Source: Microcoleus sp. FACHB-61
GTDB taxonomy: Bacteria > Cyanobacteriota > Cyanobacteriia > Cyanobacteriales > Microcoleaceae
NCBI GenBank assembly: GCA_014695295.1
Contig: JACJNY010000076.1
Location: 62,001 to 126,000, forward strand
DNA length: 64,000 nucleotides
Direction of reading: 5' to 3'
Shown: positions 2,097-64,000 of the stretch, in pieces
How positions within the stretch are numbered: the stretch's first letter is position 1
Layout of the letters: the number at the start of each line of letters is the position of its first letter
Translations under genes and position numbers: made by a program
The notes under the pieces: model-generated
The model's input: the letters and a program-made list of their open reading frames with translations, nothing else
Told to the model about the DNA's origin: nothing
Database searches by the model: none

Positions 2097-4400
2097 TTAC
2101 TTATACTGTTTAACTTCATCTTTGGGTAACAACAATGTTTCTTCAATCTCTTCGCGCACTTCAGGAGATACATTACCCCCGCTATTTAGACAATCGATGA
2201 GCAGCTTATTGGCCTCATAATACTGGTGCAATAGTTGCTTTTGCGAGTCATTGAACTCCCAATTATGACCAAGATTGCGATACTTAATGATTGCACATCT
2301 TAATTTTTCTACCAAGGGTTGAACGTTATAAGACCACCAGCCCAAATAGGCATCTAAGTCAAAACTAAGATAGTAATCAGGCTTTTTACTGCTTATTTGA
2401 AGCAGTAAATGCTTAAGTTCAGGTTGTAATTCAAGTTCACGGACATCGATAAAAGTGGGGGCATCGCCAAGGACACAACAAAGTTGGAAGTCAAGGTTAA
2501 TATCACTATGCTTTCGAGCATCACGCCCTATATCAAGACCAAGATAAACGGCAATGTCAGAGTTGAAGCAATCCTCAAAAAGGCTAAGATAAGGGTTAGG
2601 GCAAGCACAATCAAGAGTAATAGATATGTCATAGTAAAATGCTCGTATGGCTGACAGCTTGTACGGAACTTTAACTGAACTAGATTTCTGTTTAACCCAC
2701 ATTAAAAATGCCTGTAAATGCTCATCTTTAGCTACCAAAGCATCAATTTTTTGCTTCATTAACCTCAATAGTTCATCGGCATTCTGCAACATCTCAGTAG
2801 TAAGCAAAAATACCTCACGCCAACGTGGAGCGGTGATAGGGCTGACGCTAACCAAGTTTTGCCAATCTGCACGCTCCACAAACCTTTTAGCTGTGAAATA
2901 CTCTTGAAACGTCAGGTGAGAGAAAGAGTAAATATTTTTTGCCCGTTCCACCACTAACCCATGCTGCGCTTCGATTGACTTCAAAACTGCCTCACTATTC
3001 AGTTGCAACGCCTCCGGGTTGTTTTGAGCATCAGGCCGATTGCGGATGTAATCAGAAATATACTGCTCTAATTGTTTCTGTTTAAAGAAATAGTCTCCCT
3101 GCAGAAATGTCGTTAGAGCAATGTGACTGAGTAAATCTTTCTTGTACTGCAATGAGAGATTTTTATAAACCTGCTCTCGCTCAATCTTTCGCGTTTCATC
3201 CCATCTTCTCAGTAGAATATCTACTCCTTCTTCATAAAGTTCTGAACGTAAGCCGGGAAATTTGGCTGATTCTTCAAACACCAAACATAACAGCGTTAGC
3301 AGTAACGGATTTGTTGCCAGTTCTCGAATCCGGTTGTTTTCCCTAAGCTGTTGAATAAATTCCTCTGCTTTCGCTGCTTCCTTAGCTTGAAACCATTTTC
3401 GGGCAAAGGTGGCTATCTGCTTGTCATCAAAATCTGCGATTTCAACGTCTTTAAACTTATCAAAAGTATAATCTTTTGCTGCAATCCGACAAGTCATTAC
3501 AAAGTGATTGGTGCGAAATTTTTCCGATAAATAAAGAACTTGGTTGATGACATGGCTGTTATGCTCAAGTTTTACTTCATCTAAACCATCGAGTAAAACC
3601 AGTGTCTTACCGTGCTTGAAAAGGACAGCTATTTGGTCAGCAAAAACATCACAATCAGAAAACATCTGGGTGATGTATTCCAGTAAGCTAGGTTTTCCTT
3701 CAGTTTCTGCAAATTGTTTGAGCGTGATAAAAATAGGAACGCGATGAGCTTGAAATTTACCTTGATTGCACTGGATTGCTAAATGTTTTAAAAATGTGGT
3801 TTTTCCTGACCCTGGCTTACCCAGCACCATCAATTTTGAGTATTTCTCAACTGCTTCTAGTCCTGGTATTGTCTCAGTTACTTGGCCAAGTCCAAAGCGA
3901 TCGAAGTTTTTCGGGTCAAAGTCTTGTCGAAGTTCATCAATTTCGCGCCGCCAATTACTGGTAATTTTTTCCAGAATATTGACGTTGGTGTAAAGGTCAC
4001 TCACGTCAATGGGTTGTGACATGGTGAGCGATCGCATTGTACCGCACTGGTCTTGAATCATCTCGCGGCACTTCTCGCGTACCTCTTGCACCAAGCCATT
4101 TAACTCATCCTCTGACAGATTAGAAGTTGGAGAGTCAGAAGCCTTACATTTACGATATTCAGCAGTCATAAAATTGAGCAAGCGACCATATTTACCGGGG
4201 CCTTTACCGTTGATACTGAACTTTTTGTAAACGTAGCTCATGCGACTGGTAAGCGCACTGTTGCTGATATGGAGTTCGGTTGCTATCTCCAATTCTGTCT
4301 TGTTACTGCTACTAAACCAGATTACAAAAGCATCCTCTTGCTCTGGCGAAAGCGCATACTTACGAGCCATCTCAATTAAAAAATCACGCGGCAGCGTCAT
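2097..4400 (-). CDS. HTH-NACHT ATPase with C-terminal helical domain (candidate anti-phage NLR-like protein)
   Basis: A 767-residue STAND P-loop ATPase. Residues ~1-85 form a helix-turn-helix of the LuxR/sigma-region-4 kind (LSPEQEDAF, then TELEIATELHISNSALTSRMSYVYKKF). The NACHT module has Walker A GKPGSGKTT at 194-202, Walker B LVLLDGLDE at ~267-275, a TCR sensor and a winged-helix region ending in FSHLTFQEYFTAKRF. The last ~200 residues are helical and resemble the C-terminal helical domain of bacterial NACHT conflict systems (AIRAFYYDISI, YYEANKLLIDCL, VREEIEETLLLP). Bacterial NACHT proteins are known NLR relatives, and several protect against phage. No effector enzyme is fused here. The gene diverges from a nuclease-like gene at 4637 across a palindrome-containing region. 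A defence role is inferred; transcription regulation through the HTH is an alternative. Confidence 0.88.
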   Translation of the reverse strand: MTLPRDFLIEMARKYALSPEQEDAFVIWFSSSNKTELEIATELHISNSALTSRMSYVYKKFSINGKGPGKYGRLLNFMTAEYRKCKASDSPTSNLSEDELNGLVQEVREKCREMIQDQCGTMRSLTMSQPIDVSDLYTNVNILEKITSNWRREIDELRQDFDPKNFDRFGLGQVTETIPGLEAVEKYSKLMVLGKPGSGKTTFLKHLAIQCNQGKFQAHRVPIFITLKQFAETEGKPSLLEYITQMFSDCDVFADQIAVLFKHGKTLVLLDGLDEVKLEHNSHVINQVLYLSEKFRTNHFVMTCRIAAKDYTFDKFKDVEIADFDDKQIATFARKWFQAKEAAKAEEFIQQLRENNRIRELATNPLLLTLLCLVFEESAKFPGLRSELYEEGVDILLRRWDETRKIEREQVYKNLSLQYKKDLLSHIALTTFLQGDYFFKQKQLEQYISDYIRNRPDAQNNPEALQLNSEAVLKSIEAQHGLVVERAKNIYSFSHLTFQEYFTAKRFVERADWQNLVSVSPITAPRWREVFLLTTEMLQNADELLRLMKQKIDALVAKDEHLQAFLMWVKQKSSSVKVPYKLSAIRAFYYDISITLDCACPNPYLSLFEDCFNSDIAVYLGLDIGRDARKHSDINLDFQLCCVLGDAPTFIDVRELELQPELKHLLLQISSKKPDYYLSFDLDAYLGWWSYNVQPLVEKLRCAIIKYRNLGHNWEFNDSQKQLLHQYYEANKLLIDCLNSGGNVSPEVREEIEETLLLPKDEVKQYK

Positions 4401-4485
4401 TGACTAACCTCTCTATTACCTGAAAGCGAGTCCAGTATCTTCTATCTAGCCTTAAATCACAGTTAGGGCTGCTCTTATATTACTT

Positions 4486-11465: not shown

Positions 11466-11502
11466 CGCTCTAAAATCTAAAATCTAAAATCTAAAATCGC
11501 AT
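11466..11502. repeat. 7-bp tandem repeat (CTAAAAT)n abutting the start of the first permease gene
   Basis: CTAAAAT is repeated about four to five times and ends a few bases before the ATG at 11504, so it takes the place of a normal ribosome-binding region. Similar simple repeats precede the second permease (12800-12846), also without an obvious Shine-Dalgarno. Confidence 0.75.
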
Positions 11503-33462: not shown

Positions 33463-33570
33463 CTTTCCAACACTAGAAAAAATCAGCCCTCTGTGCTTGC
33501 TAAGCGCACCCTACCGCTTTCCAACACTAGAAAAAATCAGCCCTCTGTGCTGGCTAAGCGCACCCTACCG
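33463..33570. repeat. Tandem duplication of a 54-bp unit
   Basis: CTTTCCAACACTAGAAAAAA begins at 33463 and again at 33517; the two 54-bp units differ at about one base. A reading frame across them is a product of the repeat and was not called as a gene. Only two units and no spacers, so it is not a CRISPR. Confidence 0.9.
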
Positions 33571-33585
33571 CTCTTAGTGGGAGCC

Positions 33586-37929: not shown

Positions 37930-38796
37930 TAAGCAATCCCCTCTTTATTAGTTGTTAGTTGTTAGTTGTTAGAAAAAATAAATCCCCAATTAGCAGGATG
38001 GCGAATTAGCTGGATGCCAGTGGCAAAAGTGCTTGCGGCATCTCATTCAAATTATAGGTTATCAAAGGTTTGGACTCGATCGAGTTCGGTTGTTGCTTGG
38101 CGTTCGATCGCAATTTCCGCACCCCGCTGCTGTTTGAGATTTTATAGCATTCGACTCTCTTGTGCTGAAGGCAGCCGGAGCAGGCGGCTCTAGAAATGCT
38201 TTTGGCATCCGACAAGAAAAACAATGGTTTGATCAATTAAGAACGTCCTCACCCTATGCGCGGTTGCTATACTTTTGAGCTTTTAGACGGTGAAACTCTT
38301 GCCACGATAAGTTTTGAGGAGTTGTGCGCCTTGGGGCTTTTGGGAGGCGGCGAGAGCTTGAGGCAGCAGCCCGGTTGAGACGAGCCGGGGAAAGCTGCTG
38401 CTGTTGCTGGCGCGAGCCAAGGAGGGTTGACTGGGGCGGACGATCGATCTTTTATCTTTTTTGCGGTGCGCGGTGCGATCGAACTTCTCGATCTGAGCTT
38501 TTCACCCAATGCAAATTCTAGAAAGTTTTCATCAGCAACTCTGGTCGAATCTGCTACCTGAATTGTGGCCAACTTATACCTTAAAGCCCACAGTAATTCC
38601 ACAACTTTTCGATATATTTTTCCCTCACCTGAGAGCGGTACTATACAATCTTATTTTTTGAGTACCTGAATAGATTTAAGTCCAACTAATACAACATAAT
38701 CTCTCCGGTGTCTGTTAACTAGAACACACACTTTTAAAAAAATTAAGATAGGATAGTAGAACAATAAGCTTTTAACGCTATGAGGGTGCTAACATT
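37930..38796. other. Gene-free region upstream of the DnaJ gene
   Basis: 867 bp. It begins with a TTAGTTGTTAGTTGTTAG tandem repeat. Frames at 38006-38236 and 38267-38602 are Ser/Arg/Pro-rich, lack a start context and were rejected. No RNA gene was recognised. A CTTATACC-type AT-rich end near 38575-38770 may be the promoter of the small gene at 38797. Confidence 0.5.
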
Positions 38797-39000: not shown

Positions 39001-39244
39001 TGCGCGATGCCCTTATTAATGCGCAATGCTTTGAATAAAGCGAAGTATTTCGACAACCTCGCATCAGCGGTTGCCCTTAATAATGAACTAGAAAAAAAGA
39101 ATTATTTTCCTCATCAGTCATCAGTCATCGGTCATTGGTGATCTGTCACTAATTTAGTTATTTATCATCAGTCACTTGAAAAGCAGGTAACAGATTTTAA
39201 CTTAAAAAACTAATGACTGACGACTAATGACTAATGACTAATAA

Positions 39245-40534
39245 CTAAATGATAGTTCCATCAGGAATCGTGGCATTTTTCAGGACTACGATAATGCCGC
39301 TGCGGATGTAAAAACCTTGGTTTTCGCGGTTGGCTTCTTCCACTCGGTCTTTATTAATTATTTGAACATTGCGACCGATGCGGGCATTTTTATCCACAAT
39401 CGCGCGGCGAATTGTAGTATCTGCACCGATACCGAGGGCGACGCCGCCGTTGTCCAAACTCGAATGCCGTTCGGCGTCGGGTTCGTAGAAGTCAGCACCC
39501 ATGACCATAGTGTCTTGAATCGTACATCCAGCTTCAATGCGCGATCGAACTCCCAACACAGAATGGTCGATCCGGCACTGTTTGAGAATGCAGCCTTCAG
39601 CAATAATCGATTCAGTCACGTGAGTATCTAAAAGCTTTGTAGGTGGCAAGAAACGCGGGCGAGTGTAAATCGGCGCATTTTCATCGTAGAAACTGAAAGG
39701 CGGCTGAGGCTGTTTTGTCAGAGCCATGTTAGCGTCGTAAAAAGCCTCAATGGTTCCGATATCTTCCCAGTAATCGTCAAACAAATAAGCTTGAACGTTG
39801 TGGTCTTTTGCAGAATTCGGAATTATCTCTTTACCAAAATCAGTTTGGTTGGGAGATTCTTTCAGGAGTTTAATCAGAACTTCTCTTTTGAAGACGTAAA
39901 TCCCCATCGAAGCAATGTAAGGACTGTCCTGAGCCTGCTGCCCTGTCAGTCCCAGTTTAGTAGTATCCACCTGCATTTGTTTGAGCGCATCGCCTTTTGG
40001 CTTTTCGCTGAAAGAAACAATGCGACCGTTGTCGTCGATTTTCATCAAACCAAAATCCGAGGCACGCTTCTCGTCCATTGGCAAAACCGAGAGGGTGATA
40101 TCGGCGTTGGTTTCGCGGTGTCTCTGCACAAACTTCTGGTAGTCCATGCGGTAGAGGTGGTCGCCCGAAAGAATCAAGTATTCGTCAACGTCCCACTGTT
40201 CTAGCAGCGAGAGATATTGGCGAACTGCGTCGGCTGTCCCTTGAAACCAGTTGGGGTTTTCCTGAGTTTGCTGGGCGGCGAGTACCTCGACAAATCCCTC
40301 GGTGAAGCCGGAAAACTGGTATGTCCGAGAGATGTGACGGTTGAGGGATGCCGAGTTGAATTGCGTGAGGACGTAAATTTTGACTATTTCCGAGTTGATG
40401 CAGTTGCTGACAGGAATATCGATGAGGCGATATTTGCCTGCGAGGGGAACTGCGGGTTTGGCTCGCAGTTTGGTTAGGGGGTAAAGGCGGGTGCCTACAC
40501 CGCCACCGAGGATGATGGCTAAGACTTTTTTCAA
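39245..40534 (-). CDS. glgC: Glucose-1-phosphate adenylyltransferase
   Basis: 429 residues from a TTG start with GGGAG 9 bases upstream. It makes ADP-glucose, the donor for glycogen synthesis. The N-terminal nucleotidyltransferase has [33 protein letters not shown] and [16 protein letters not shown]. The C-terminal part is a left-handed beta-helix with an RIEAGCTIQ turn. The length matches cyanobacterial GlgC (about 430). It is regulated allosterically by 3-phosphoglycerate in cyanobacteria. The gene stands alone, but a polysaccharide-degrading enzyme is encoded divergently 763 bp away (41298). Confidence 0.97.
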
Positions 40535-59710: not shown

Positions 59711-62700
59711 ATGAGCGAGTGGCTTGTTATCTGGGGAGTGGCGCAGGGAGTTGGCATTCTCGTCAAACCCATCTTAGAAGAGTTGGCAGTAGACGGCGCG
59801 AAGGATTTGGTAAAAGATTTTTTTAAAGATTCCCTAAAAAACGTCTTATTTTTTGGCGAAAAAGACCCCCGACAAGTCGCAGCGGGCAAAGCGATCAAAA
59901 AGTTTTTGGAGTTGGTGGAACAGCAGTTGAAAATTGGCGGACTTTCCCCAGAGCAAAGAAAGCTGTATATTAAAGATGTTAAACAGTTTATCAATAACAA
60001 GTCTGTTAAGGAAATTTTGGGCAAGGCTTTTGAGAGCGATCGCGAATCTCTCGATGCAGAACTTCTCGAACAAACCTGGAGTCAACTAGATTTAACTTCT
60101 TTACCCGCAAGATTTAAGTGGCTAACCATCGCCAATCAGTATCTGGCAGAAGTTCAAGAAATTCTCTTTGACTCAAAAGAGTTGCGCGATATCTTGAATG
60201 CTCAAAATCTGGATAGCATTCAGAAAAATACTCAAGAAACGGCGGGGATTATCCCCGAATTTGACTTGAGGCAATATCAAGAAGCTCTGTGCGAGCGTTA
60301 CAGCAATCTCAATTTAAGCAGCGTCGATCCCAATACCTACGATTATCGCGAAAAGCTGAAGGTTTGGCAAATCTTTATTTTCCAAGATGTGCGATCGATT
60401 TATGAATCCTTTCTGCCCCAAGCTTACGAAATTCCTAAAGAACATCAACGGCGGCTGCAAGACACCAATCAATTAGACGCGATCGATCTAGAAAATTTAG
60501 AGAAATATCGGCGCGGTTATTTTTCTCAGCCGATCGTCTCCGTGTTAGATGTTATAAATGACAAGCAAAAGTATCCCTACATTGTTATTTTAGGCGATCC
60601 GGGCTCTGGCAAGTCTACTCTGTTACAATATTTAGCATTAAACTGGGCGCGATCGCCCTTAAATAGCGTGACATCTCTGCCGATTCCGCTGCTAATAGAA
60701 TTGCGGACTTACATTCGCAGCGGGGAATCAGGACATTGCAAGAACTTCCTCGAATTTTTCCATCAAAGTCCGGGTTCAATTTGTCACTTGAATCAGCATC
60801 AATTGCAGGAACAGCTTAAAGCAGGCGATGCTGTGGTGATGTTCGACGGGTTAGATGAAATTTTCGATCACGGGAAACGAGAAGATGTAATTACAGCGAT
60901 TCATCGGTTTACCAATGAGTATCCGCGCGTGCGAGTGATTGTCACGTCTCGGATTATTGGTTACAAACCTCAACGGTTGCAAGATGCAGACTTTCATCAC
61001 TTTATCCTCCAAGATTTGAATTCGGAACAAATTCAGGATTTTGTTCGCCGCTGGCACGAATTAACTTTTACTGATGCTGGGGAAAAAGCGCGAATTCGCG
61101 ATCGCATGGAAAGAGCATTAGCGTATTCATCAACGATTCGAGATTTAGCGGGTAATCCGTTATTGTTGACGATTATGGCGATTTTAAACCGCGGGCAAGA
61201 ATTGCCGAGAGACAGGGCGGAACTTTACAATCAAGCTTCGCGGGTATTGCTTTATCAATGGGATGTGGAAAGGTCTTTAGTAGAGGATAGCAGGCTCGAT
61301 CCGAAAACTATTGATGCTAAAGATAAGCAAGAAATGCTGCGGCGAGTCGCTTACAAAATGCAAGCAGCACCTGAAGGGTTGGCTGGCAATATTATTAGTG
61401 CGGAAGATTTGGAGGATACCCTGACAGCATATCTGAAGAATAAAGATTTCGATCGACCGAAAGAGCGGGCAAGGTTGATAATTAACCAACTGCGAACTCG
61501 CAACTTTATTTTATGTTATTTGGGTGCGGATACTTATGGGTTTGTGCATCGAACTTTTTTGGAATATTTCTGTGCGTCGGAGGTGGTGGAGAGATTTGAG
61601 AAGACGCAAAAACTTTCTTTAGATGAGTTGAAAACAGAGGTTTTTGGCACGCATTGGGATGATGAATCTTGGCAGGAAGTTTTGTGCTTGATTGCGGGAT
61701 TGATTGATGGACGGTTTACGGGAGAATTGATTGAGTTTCTGATGCGGCAGGATGGGGAAGCCCAAAAGTTCCGCAATCTGTTTTTGGCGGCGAAGTGTTT
61801 GGATGAAGTGAGGGATAGAAACGTGATTGCTGCGGTTGAGACTCAATTGCTTGAACGCTTAAAAAAGTTAACCAAATACGACCCCAATTACTATTATCCG
61901 CCTTATGGAGAAGAAACTAATCTAGTTAAGGAAATTCGTACTCCAGCAGTAAGTGCGATCGCCTACACTTGGAAAGATGACCCAGAAACTTTACCTTGGC
62001 TCCAACAACTGGCTCAATCTGATGATAATTCGAGTGTGCCACATATAGCCGTCCAAAAATTAGCACGGGGGTGGAAAGATGACCCCGAAACCTTACCTCT
62101 CCTCAAACAACTGGCTCAAGGTAATGGTAATTATCATTTCCTTGTGCCATATGCAGCAGTCCAAGAATTAGCACGGCGGTGGAAAGATGACCCGGAAACC
62201 TTACCTCTCCTCAAACAACTGGCTCAATCTGATGAGAAGTCTTTTAGGCGAGTTGCAGCAGTCCAAGAATTAGCACGGGGGTGGAAAGATGACCCGGAAA
62301 CCTTACCTCTCCTCAAACAACTGGCTCAATATAATAATCATTTGGCTAGCCGACAAGCAGCAGTCCAAGAAATAGCACGGGGGTGGAAAGATGACCCCGA
62401 AATCTTACCTCTTCTCAAACAATGGGCTCAATCTCATGATAATTCGGATGTGCGAAAAGCAGCAGTCGAAGGAATAGCACGGGGGTGGAAAGATGACCCG
62501 GAAACTTTACCTCTACTCAAACAACTGGCTCAATCTCATGATAATTTTGATGTGCGACAAACAGCAGTCAAAGAATTAGTACGGGGGTGGAAAGATGACC
62601 CGGAAACCTTACCTCTCCTCAAACAACGCGCTCAATCAGACGATAATTCGGCTGTGCGAGGTGCAGCAGTCCAAGAATTAGCACGGGGATGGAAAGATGA

Positions 62701-63538
62701 CCCGGAAACCTTACCTCTCCTCAAACAATGGGCTCAATCTCATGATAATTCGGATGTGCGAAAAGCAGCAGTCGAAGAAATAGCACGGGGGTGGAAAGAT
62801 GACCCGGAAACTTTACCTCTACTCAAACAACTGGCTCAATCTCATGATAATTCGGATGTGCGACCTCCAGCAGTCGGAGAAATAGCACAGGGGTGGAAAG
62901 ATGACCCGGAAACCTTACCTCTCCTCAAACAATGGGCTCAATCTCATGATCATTGGTATGTGCGAGGTGCAGCAGTCCAAGAAATAGCACTGGGGTGGAA
63001 AGATGACCCGGAAACCTTACCTCTCCTCAAACAACGCGCTCAATCTGATGATCATTGGTTTGTGCGATATGCAGCAGTCCAACAAATAGCACAGGGGTGG
63101 AAAGATGACCCGGAAACCTTACCTCTCCTCAAACAACTGGCTCAATCAGACGATAATTGGGCTGTGCGACAAACAGCAGTCCAAGAAATAGCACGGGGGT
63201 GGAAAGATGACCCGGAAACCTTACCTCTCCTCAAACAACTGGCTCAATCAGACGATAATTGGGATGTGCGACAAACAGCAGTCCAAGAAATAGCACGGGG
63301 GTGGAAAGATGAACCAGAGATATTTGAAGGGTTGTGCGATATAGCTATCAATCATCCTTTTGAACGTGAGTCTAAGTTCCAAGATAATCCCAGACAAGCA
63401 GCACTTGAAATAATGCTCAAGCAATACCCCGATCGCCCAAAAACTTTAGAAATACTTCGCGATCGATTTGCCAACGATCCAGATGAAGAAGTCCGCAATT
63501 TTGCCCAGCAAGCATTGGCAGAATTAGAGAAGCTGTAA
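59711..63538 (+). CDS. NACHT ATPase with long near-identical HEAT-like repeat array (candidate immune sensor)
   Basis: 1275 residues. An N-terminal helical segment (1-50, WLVIWGVAQGVGILVKPIL) may anchor or act as an effector. Walker A GDPGSGKST is at 295-303, Walker B VVMFDGLDE at ~375-383, with VTSR and the C-terminal winged-helix motif FVHRTFLEYFCASEVVERF (~615). From residue 754 to ~1198 are 13 repeats of about 34 residues of the form WKDDPETLPLLKQLAQSDDNxxVRxxAVQEIARG, then two diverged ones. The repeats differ mainly at the DNxxVRxx positions. This resembles NLR-type proteins in which a repeat array senses the trigger. A defence role is inferred. An Uma2 gene follows 83 bp downstream. 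Confidence 0.9.
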   Translation: MSEWLVIWGVAQGVGILVKPILEELAVDGAKDLVKDFFKDSLKNVLFFGEKDPRQVAAGKAIKKFLELVEQQLKIGGLSPEQRKLYIKDVKQFINNKSVKEILGKAFESDRESLDAELLEQTWSQLDLTSLPARFKWLTIANQYLAEVQEILFDSKELRDILNAQNLDSIQKNTQETAGIIPEFDLRQYQEALCERYSNLNLSSVDPNTYDYREKLKVWQIFIFQDVRSIYESFLPQAYEIPKEHQRRLQDTNQLDAIDLENLEKYRRGYFSQPIVSVLDVINDKQKYPYIVILGDPGSGKSTLLQYLALNWARSPLNSVTSLPIPLLIELRTYIRSGESGHCKNFLEFFHQSPGSICHLNQHQLQEQLKAGDAVVMFDGLDEIFDHGKREDVITAIHRFTNEYPRVRVIVTSRIIGYKPQRLQDADFHHFILQDLNSEQIQDFVRRWHELTFTDAGEKARIRDRMERALAYSSTIRDLAGNPLLLTIMAILNRGQELPRDRAELYNQASRVLLYQWDVERSLVEDSRLDPKTIDAKDKQEMLRRVAYKMQAAPEGLAGNIISAEDLEDTLTAYLKNKDFDRPKERARLIINQLRTRNFILCYLGADTYGFVHRTFLEYFCASEVVERFEKTQKLSLDELKTEVFGTHWDDESWQEVLCLIAGLIDGRFTGELIEFLMRQDGEAQKFRNLFLAAKCLDEVRDRNVIAAVETQLLERLKKLTKYDPNYYYPPYGEETNLVKEIRTPAVSAIAYTWKDDPETLPWLQQLAQSDDNSSVPHIAVQKLARGWKDDPETLPLLKQLAQGNGNYHFLVPYAAVQELARRWKDDPETLPLLKQLAQSDEKSFRRVAAVQELARGWKDDPETLPLLKQLAQYNNHLASRQAAVQEIARGWKDDPEILPLLKQWAQSHDNSDVRKAAVEGIARGWKDDPETLPLLKQLAQSHDNFDVRQTAVKELVRGWKDDPETLPLLKQRAQSDDNSAVRGAAVQELARGWKDDPETLPLLKQWAQSHDNSDVRKAAVEEIARGWKDDPETLPLLKQLAQSHDNSDVRPPAVGEIAQGWKDDPETLPLLKQWAQSHDHWYVRGAAVQEIALGWKDDPETLPLLKQRAQSDDHWFVRYAAVQQIAQGWKDDPETLPLLKQLAQSDDNWAVRQTAVQEIARGWKDDPETLPLLKQLAQSDDNWDVRQTAVQEIARGWKDEPEIFEGLCDIAINHPFERESKFQDNPRQAALEIMLKQYPDRPKTLEILRDRFANDPDEEVRNFAQQALAELEKL
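61970..63300. repeat. Thirteen 102-bp tandem coding repeats (HEAT-like array)
   Basis: The DNA period is 102 bp (one unit of 108 bp). Adjacent late units differ by one base over about 100 bp (62-63 kb, GCTGTG against GATGTG). High DNA identity across units, with changes concentrated at the same few codons, points to recent expansion and gene conversion. Confidence 0.95.
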
Positions 63539-63621: not shown

Positions 63622-64000
63622 ATGCAAGTCACGACCGAAGAAATTATTTATCCATGCAGCGACGGTCAACCAATGGCAGATAGCACAATTCAATACAAAT
63701 TAATTGTCAAAATCAAAGAAGGTTGCGAATCGCTGTTTAAAAACGACCCAAACGTGTTTGTAGCAGCCGATTTACTGTGGTATCCAGTTGAAGGCAGACC
63801 AGACATTTCCCAAGCACCGGATGTCATGGTAATATTTGGCAGACCAAAGGGCGATCGACGTTCCTACCTGCAATTTAACGAAGATAATATTGCTCCCCAA
63901 GTTGCGTTTGAGATTCGCTCTCACAACGACAGACAAACCAAGATGTACAAAAAACTTTCATTTTACAATCGCTATGGAGTCGATGAATATTACCTTTACG
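63622..64000 (+). CDS. Uma2-family endonuclease-like protein, N-terminal part (3' end outside window)
   Basis: The ATG at 63622 opens a frame to the window edge (126 codons). The sequence shows the restriction-endonuclease-like Uma2 fold: FVAADLLWYPVEG, APDVMVIFGRPKG with the catalytic Asp, PQVAFEIRSHND with the Glu, and YNRYGVDEYYLY. The usual Uma2 (D/E)xK Lys position is FEIRS here; many Uma2 proteins have S or K in this place, so activity cannot be judged. Uma2 genes are very abundant in filamentous cyanobacteria and their role is unclear; a mobile-element or nuclease function is assumed. Confidence 0.9.
   Translation, partial: MQVTTEEIIYPCSDGQPMADSTIQYKLIVKIKEGCESLFKNDPNVFVAADLLWYPVEGRPDISQAPDVMVIFGRPKGDRRSYLQFNEDNIAPQVAFEIRSHNDRQTKMYKKLSFYNRYGVDEYYLY

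Follow-up and report, generated by a model that had tools for sequence, protein, structure and literature searches.

The closest described counterparts of the gene presented here are fungal NOD-like receptors (NLRs) with internally conserved repeats, namely the Podospora HNWD proteins (het-d, het-e), NACHT-ANK and NB-ARC-TPR proteins, and one NACHT/TPR(HEAT) gene, which is among those with differing repeat number (PMC4986451, PMC12222747). For these NLRs, repeat-number polymorphism, concerted evolution, exchange within and between loci, and positive selection, seen as an amino-acid excess, at few surface positions per repeat were reported. We describe a bacterial gene which shares the NLR architecture, the near-identical repeats and the differing repeat number. 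It is located in a stretch of 64,000 nucleotides from Microcoleus sp. FACHB-61 (assembly GCA_014695295.1, contig JACJNY010000076.1, positions 62,001 to 126,000), which is called the window in the following. The locus of this gene is named locus A, the genome containing the window is G000, with the window on its contig 74, and further G numbers designate other genomes. In contrast to the fungal NLRs, the host is a bacterium, the repeats are HEAT units of 34 amino acids, the N-terminus is an NNH2 domain, and the system is known from sequence alone. The results make it probable that the protein is an NLR-type receptor with a HEAT sensor that is evolvable by recombination and under selection at about eight positions per unit; its function is wholly inferred.

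In bacteria, the bNACHT proteins, e.g. bNACHT25, have in common with the window protein a central NACHT domain, an N-terminal effector position and a C-terminal sensor position; bNACHT25 is activated by phage coat protein synthesis (PMC12169576). Their C-termini are, however, SNaCT or NCH1, their effectors are PD-(D/E)XK or undiscerned, and an evolving repeat array is not described for them in the available portion of PMC12169576. A similarly high internal identity, explained by recent repeat duplication, was reported for highly repetitive WD40 proteins of prokaryotes, with WD40 proteins being enriched in cyanobacteria (PMC5587647); their repeats are WD40 and not HEAT, and the main text of that paper contains no occurrence of "nacht", "immun" or "hypervariable". 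Antigen sensors diversified by diversity-generating retroelements (DGRs) are likewise tied to NACHT and to multicellular bacteria, but these use point hypermutation by reverse transcription (PMC10907252), whereas the contig of the window gene is without an RVT_1 match. VMAP systems of multicellular bacteria employ HEAT repeats among others (PMC7159879), and the artificial HEAT-like alphaRep binders (PDB 4zv6, 6bzx) are among the closest known systems. Among the open-licence papers listed by the searches, no title or abstract beginning describes a bacterial NACHT-HEAT family of this kind, and papers on what NNH domains do were searched for without a relevant result. The mechanism as such is known from fungal NLRs.

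The window protein is tripartite, with NNH2 at residues 27-206, NACHT at residues 290-450, and HEAT units from residue 754 onwards. The features of the gene are listed below; TRF stands for Tandem Repeats Finder.

59711-63538, + strand: gene of the NNH2-NACHT-HEAT protein (locus A), 1275 amino acids
59789-60328, + strand: NNH2 (NACHT N-terminal helical domain 2), residues 27-206; Pfam PF22734, 182.9 bits, cut-off 27
60578-61060, + strand: NACHT NTPase domain, residues 290-450; Pfam PF05729, 59.1 bits, cut-off 26.7
60593-60616, + strand: GDPGSGKS, residues 295-302, Walker A; motif located in the protein
60833-60859, + strand: VVMFDGLDE, residues 375-383, Walker B region; motif located in the protein
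61478-61660, + strand: left breakpoint zone of the cassette exchange in relatives (codons about 590-650), approximate, from sliding identity and trees
61631-61969, + strand: helical lead-in preceding the units, part of the sensor cassette (codons about 641-753); in relatives it is exchanged along with the array
61970-63301, + strand: HEAT array, 13 units of 34 amino acids (unit 2: 36); TRF, profile parse, Pfam HEAT_2
61970, 62072, 62180, 62282, 62384, 62486, 62588, 62690, 62792, 62894, 62996, 63098 and 63200, + strand: starts of the 13 units
63302-63535, + strand: C-terminal helical cap, 78 amino acids; the parsed tail has 78 amino acids in 7 of 12 orthologues

NNH2 is the presumed signalling or effector part of the protein. 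The assignment to NACHT is given by a Pfam score above the curated cut-off and by the intact P-loop; with VVMFDGLDE and with VTSR at residues 411-414 also in place, the NACHT core is intact, as a preliminary description of the window had stated. HEAT_2 scored 234.5 bits, above its cut-off. A test for HEAT proteins of the phycobilisome lyase or NblB type gave 59.5 bits with the NblB model (cut-off 300) and 24.3 bits with the CpcF model (cut-off 220), and the Protein Data Bank returned zero sequence matches at E 0.001. The N-terminal residues of the protein are strikingly hydrophobic (MSEWLVIWGVAQGVGILVKPIL); judging from their composition, they might target a membrane, which is a guess.

TRF reported the array at 61970-63312 with a period of 102, 13.1 copies and a score of 1806, the highest among the 24 TRF rows in the window. 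In register, 13 units occupy 61970-63301, twelve of 102 bp and one (unit 2) of 108 bp; both TRF and the parse thus confirm the thirteen tandem units of about 34 residues noted in the preliminary description. The wording "almost identical at the DNA level" used there slightly overstates the likeness of the units: taken over all 13, the mean pairwise DNA identity is 85.7% (77.5-99.0%), with units 5-13 reaching 88.4% and units 1-4 reaching 81.9%. At the amino-acid level, the mean identity is 74.4% for all 13 units and 79.3% for units 5-13. Protein identity (74%) is lower than DNA identity (86%), which is the reverse of what purifying selection leaves. Note that the threshold stated for fungal NLRs in the available sources, more than 85% amino-acid identity of repeats over at least 100 residues, is higher than the mean of the window units.

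Forty units, taken from relatives and from the window, have the consensus WKDDPETLPxLKQxAQSDDNxxVRxAAVQELARG, with W being position 1. In the window units, 3 kinds of residue occur at position 14; 4, 3, 4 and 6 at positions 19-22; 7 at position 25; and 4 each at positions 26, 29, and 30. Position 10 is also strongly variable in the units of relatives. Differences had previously been placed right after DN; this holds for positions 19-22 but misses the others. In the predicted model of residues 621-1275 (mean pLDDT, i.e. predicted local distance difference test score, 81.6), positions 7-15 of unit 1 form helix 1 and positions 23-34 form helix 2; according to the predicted secondary structure, the variable positions belong to helix 1, the loop, and the start of helix 2. 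By helical-wheel directions, which use no coordinates, they point 80-134 degrees away from the hydrophobic side. A Foldseek search with the array model listed general eukaryotic HEAT proteins (CAND1, karyopherins) among the 50 rows listed. The full-length model of an orthologue is weak over NACHT (mean pLDDT 69.0, many stretches below 50), and the comparison of its fold was largely limited to residues 756-1170.

Those relatives that have named records belong to Microcoleus and other filamentous cyanobacteria. Among 29 genomes of the genus, 12 (the window's included) match over the whole core of 750 amino acids, and three more (G020, G001, G018) have a cut or truncated core match. All 12 orthologues are preceded by what we take to be a glutathione-reductase-type gene and followed within 3 kb by what we take to be an ABC gene. 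These common flanking genes indicate that locus A is fixed and not a mobile island. Here, the array consists of 13 units in the window, 19 in G028, 10 each in G027, G007 and G017, 8 each in G013 and G012, 8-9 in G023 (the ninth being partial and fused to the tail), 5 in G006, 4 each in G015 and G011 (where the parse prints 5, the last stretch running into the cap), and 3 in G004; in G001, whose core is split between contigs, there are at least 6. Most units are 34 amino acids long, a few 32-37. The comparison of unit number between relatives, which the preliminary description had proposed, thus gave 3-19 units across 12 same-genus orthologues at one locus, which is the kind of polymorphism known from fungal NLRs; the differences were seen between species only. 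G027 and G028 are single-contig genomes, whose arrays, including that of the G028 paralogue introduced below, have 10, 19 and 18 units; most other genomes are drafts. In G028, units 5-7 and 10-12 are 97.4% identical, a likeness reached by 1 of 1000 order shuffles, which speaks for a block duplication.

As a control, a HEAT protein lacking NACHT (G000:C72) was compared in 16 hand-picked genomes of those searched. Aligned with the copy of the window genome, the other 15 gave 696-708 aligned residues with 5-20 gap positions and 75-94% identity; so few gap positions leave no room for any gained or lost unit of 34 amino acids. The parser finds 11-14 units in this protein because its units are divergent. 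It is a conserved HEAT protein of about 697 amino acids (L106, orthologues L107-L121) with similar length in 16 genomes.

Some copies of the locus A gene look altered or broken. In G018:C2 (L075/L181), the core match stops after about 318 residues; in G020:C281 (L074), the frame stops inside the array; and in G028 (L052), an odd end of 29 amino acids replaces the cap.

For the analysis of selection, arrays were divided by DNA identity into homogeneous ones (window, G027, G028, G006, G015, G004, G011, G001, and paralogues) and old ones, in which a unit corresponds to the unit at the same position in another genome (G013, G023, G012; G007, G017); this division was made after the identities were seen. 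Units with at least 33 of 34 columns were counted, and paralogues with one or two parsed units (L070, L071, L072, L076, L077) as well as the broken copies of G020 and G018 were left out. In order to avoid circularity, the test positions 9, 14, 17, 20, 21, 22, 25 and 26 were taken from the five old arrays only and then applied to 11 other arrays (8 at locus A, 3 elsewhere), in which each unit was compared with its nearest sister unit. The proportion of non-synonymous differences (pN) at the test positions was 3.04 times the overall proportion of synonymous differences (pS), with a 95% bootstrap interval over arrays of 2.47-4.23; at the other unit positions, the same ratio was 0.79. The ratio at the test positions amounted to 1.95 (1.38-3.63) when the synonymous sites of the same codons were taken as reference, to 2.55 (1.82-4.08) for single-base codon differences only, to 2.91 for unit pairs of at least 92% identity, and to 2.86 for the single-contig genomes alone. 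Position sets determined by leaving out one array at a time gave values above 1 for 11 of 11 arrays (1.49-12.77, small counts). For the gene part preceding the array, the ratio of non-synonymous to synonymous substitution rates (dN/dS) relative to the window was 0.18-0.34 in 11 orthologues. The excess variation at these codons for which the preliminary description had suggested to look is therefore present at positions set from other arrays.

Homologues of the core at E 1e-70 or better were found in 48 of 195 genomes drawn from the order, i.e. in 33 of 94 genera, and 42 of these 48 genomes lie outside the genus. The sample from other genera comprises 25 loci returned for 25 of the 42 genomes: 17 carry four or more units of this 34-residue type, and the remaining 8 carry three at most or none at all, some of them being cut by the end of the locus. 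Pooling the 13 of the 17 arrays whose mean DNA identity is 0.8 or higher, a limit chosen afterwards, gave a ratio of 2.14 (1.63-2.96) with positions fixed from Microcoleus. By counting, both groups of arrays thus show the amino-acid excess at few positions that characterizes the fungal repeats. Per-position variability in Microcoleus and in the other genera is correlated (Spearman 0.61, p 1e-4), and six of the eight most variable positions are common to both (14, 19-22, 25). At one locus from another genus of the same family (L168, G054:C131), two array units are identical in DNA; the frame reaches the end of the locus.

The gene also shows an exchange of larger parts between lineages. In codons 1-640, G013 is closer to the window (95% identity) than to G023 (90%). 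The order is reversed in codons 640-757, where its identity is 78% with the window and 94% with G023; after the array, G013 is again 93% identical to the window. In the tree of the first 1740 bp, G013 clusters with the window, G027 and G028 (100/100), and a grouping of G013 with G023 is rejected (p-AU, from the approximately unbiased test, 1.2e-7). In the tree of the lead, G013 falls together with G023 and G012, likewise at 100/100, and the core grouping is rejected (p-AU 1.5e-50). G028 and G004 represent a second case; they are joined in the lead at 100/100 and rejected in the 5' part (p-AU 3e-46). The tree groups tested were chosen after the identities were seen. Whole sensor cassettes were swapped between lineages beneath a conserved NACHT core.

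A second NLR locus exists in the genus. G028 possesses a full-length paralogue of 1466 amino acids with 18 units, located between genes that are presumably leuS and of the aat/nth type. In this neighbourhood, G000 has a sensor-only reading frame alone (L067:5616-6623, G000:C16; 336 amino acids, 3 units), and a comparable frame is found downstream of the same genes in G007 (L177:5022-6398, G007:C162; 459 amino acids, 7 full units); these frames may be remnants, decoys or donors. Between the two loci within a genome, pS is 0.61 (G000) and 0.53 (G028) for the leads, and 0.14 (G000) and 0.27 (G028) for the units. The units are more alike than the leads, and judging from these sequence distances the value for G000 points to an exchange that was recent. 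As donor of the cassette class of G013, G023 and G012, the sensor-only gene at G000:C16 was considered and rejected, its lead being only 58-59% identical to that class; this lead is 77-84% identical to those of four paralogues.

Repeat expansion, conversion and diversification, as put forward in the preliminary description, are supported by unit numbers, the codon excess, the cassette exchange, and the likeness of units between loci. The feature is real and replicated, and the idea of a diversifying HEAT sensor is supported as a statement on evolution and unproven as one on function. The preliminary description had likened the array to the leucine-rich repeats of eukaryotic NLRs; the fungal NLRs with internally conserved WD, ANK, TPR or HEAT repeats are closer (PMC4986451).

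We propose that the protein would act as a bacterial NLR-type receptor, in which NNH2 would signal, NACHT would be the NTPase switch, and the C-terminal HEAT solenoid would serve as the sensor. The sensor may be kept evolvable via recombination among near-identical units of 102 bp: units would be gained or lost by unequal exchange or slippage and shared with the second NLR locus, and whole sensor cassettes are swapped among lineages below the conserved NACHT core. Selection would favour amino-acid change at about eight positions per unit, located in helix 1, the loop, and the first turn of helix 2, the unit backbone meanwhile being held constant. The variable positions would then bind a variable non-self ligand, possibly a phage protein or a self/non-self mark; ligand binding may free the NACHT switch to oligomerise, upon which NNH2 would set off a defensive or suicidal response.

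Several findings weigh against this proposal. If no identity cut is applied, the ratio for all 17 arrays from other genera is 1.27 (0.91-2.07). In the single-contig subset, the ratio falls to 1.59 when it is referred to synonymous sites of the same codons, and the lower bound of its interval is 0.98. In four comparisons of old arrays with positionally matched units between genomes (position set 10, 14, 19-22, 25, 26), pN at variable positions over pS was 0.47, 0.94, 0.45 and 0.59; these values below 1 give no sign of positive selection in such arrays and indicate that the excess belongs to the arrays that are turning over and not to settled ones. Moreover, the test counts codon differences, and it presumes that synonymous sites are a fair yardstick under conversion. 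The order of units was unremarkable with respect to block duplication in three of four arrays, including the window (67, 309 and 120 of 1000 shuffles); a regular block duplication in the window array, to which the value of 67 belongs, is thus unsupported. With regard to the second locus, unit pS was 0.44 between locus A and a paralogue in G012 and 0.38 between the loci in G007, which is a weak likeness. Between genomes, the units of locus A in G000 and G027 differ from those of the G028 paralogue by a pS of 0.29 and 0.26, respectively, which is about the value found within G028 (0.27); therefore, only G000 points to recent exchange within a genome. The remaining likeness of units could be due to older exchange, transfer between genomes, or synonymous constraint. 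Finally, matches to known defence models in PADLOC are weak. The best for the window protein was 1.3e-5 (mad8, in the P-loop region), and the 8 PADLOC-DB families listed for it at E 1 do not include an Avs model. Among 18 homologues, mad8 matched 17, the candidate models PDC-S73 and PDC-S60 matched 5 and 3, respectively (best 7.8e-8), and HEAT-ARM_XIII matched 2 (best 2.9e-12).

A rival explanation is a neutral or weakly constrained turnover of repeats, in which the HEAT arm would be a spacer or scaffold whose length and loop residues are immaterial. Tandem arrays turn over by themselves, several copies seem broken or without the NACHT part, and the positional orthologues in old arrays have a pN/pS below 1 at variable sites. 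Relaxed constraint gives, however, a pN/pS of at most 1, as against 3.0 in Microcoleus and 2.1 in the 13 homogeneous arrays of other genera, and the length of 34 amino acids is kept in most units, with few of 32-37; we therefore regard this explanation as improbable. It is still harder to believe that unit numbers and orders are errors of short-read assembly. Such errors are a reported problem with arrays of this kind (PMC12222747), and most genomes used here are drafts; yet the single-contig genomes G027 and G028 hold 10, 19 and 18 units, the cassette swap is visible in the unique sequence of the lead, and much the same variable positions recur in other genera.

Diversification by a DGR, whose reverse transcriptase would rewrite units from a template repeat, has a precedent in NACHT-linked sensors of multicellular bacteria (PMC10907252), and the window genome has two RVT_1 matches. 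Both lie away from the contig of the window gene, on C68 and C15; similar DNA was found at one further place in the genome, the coding array at C16; and the variation, which extends over a large number of tandem units, is moved in the form of entire units and cassettes. With no reverse transcriptase or template repeat nearby, this explanation was set aside as highly improbable. A different question is what the receptor would recognize. Its ligand might be a polymorphic cellular protein, serving either filament allorecognition or the guarding of a host protein, as with HET-E and HET-D of Podospora. The closest precedents for such repeat evolution are fungal allorecognition NLRs (PMC4986451, PMC12222747), and the fixed chromosomal position with flanking genes kept in 12 of 12 orthologues would suit this role; bacterial NACHT proteins are, on the other hand, described as anti-phage in the available portion of PMC12169576, and we consider a self/non-self or self-surveillance receptor unlikely, if less so than neutral turnover.

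Directly downstream of locus A, a further gene begins in the window:

63622-64000, + strand: Uma2-family gene, cut by the window end (226 amino acids in the genome); Pfam PF05685, 54.1 bits

The Uma2 gene adjoining the NACHT-HEAT gene, to which the preliminary description had drawn attention, is thus real. In 10 of the 12 orthologous loci, Uma2 lies no more than 3 kb downstream of the gene; it compares with 12 of 12 for the ordinary flanking genes and was taken as a neighbour outside the system. By eye, Uma2-like frames also follow arrays elsewhere (L177:6618-7469, G007:C162; L179:2979-3767, G010:C104), and Uma2 may travel with these HEAT arrays. A second NACHT protein in the window (2103-4403, - strand, about 767 amino acids) combines NACHT with NCH2 (C-terminal helical domain 2), and none of the families listed for it is HEAT; the 6.6-Mb genome G000 contains 18 NACHT matches at E 0.001, 17 of them over the cut-off. 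TRF detected further repeats in the window, among them a 54-bp unit in two near-identical copies (33463-33572, 98% match) and short arrays of 7-bp units at 1561-1594, 11469-11498, 37948-37972, 39209-39248 and other positions.

As a wider and more tentative reading, it is possible that filamentous cyanobacteria run an evolvable receptor system, which combines a conserved NNH2-NACHT core with an exchangeable HEAT cassette. Specificities would arise via unit turnover, exchange between at least two NLR loci, and cassette swap, with the sensor-only genes of 336 and 459 amino acids being donors or decoys. If this is true, it would mean a recombination-built, repertoire-like recognition in bacteria which needs no reverse transcriptase and is convergent with that of fungal NLRs. 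A bacterial NLR family with a repeat-recombination sensor would show that the strategy of fungal allorecognition also arose in bacteria. The relatives offer a natural series of variants that have almost the same core but differ in their sensors, which range from 3 to 19 units and include swapped cassettes, and this makes the recognition target directly testable.

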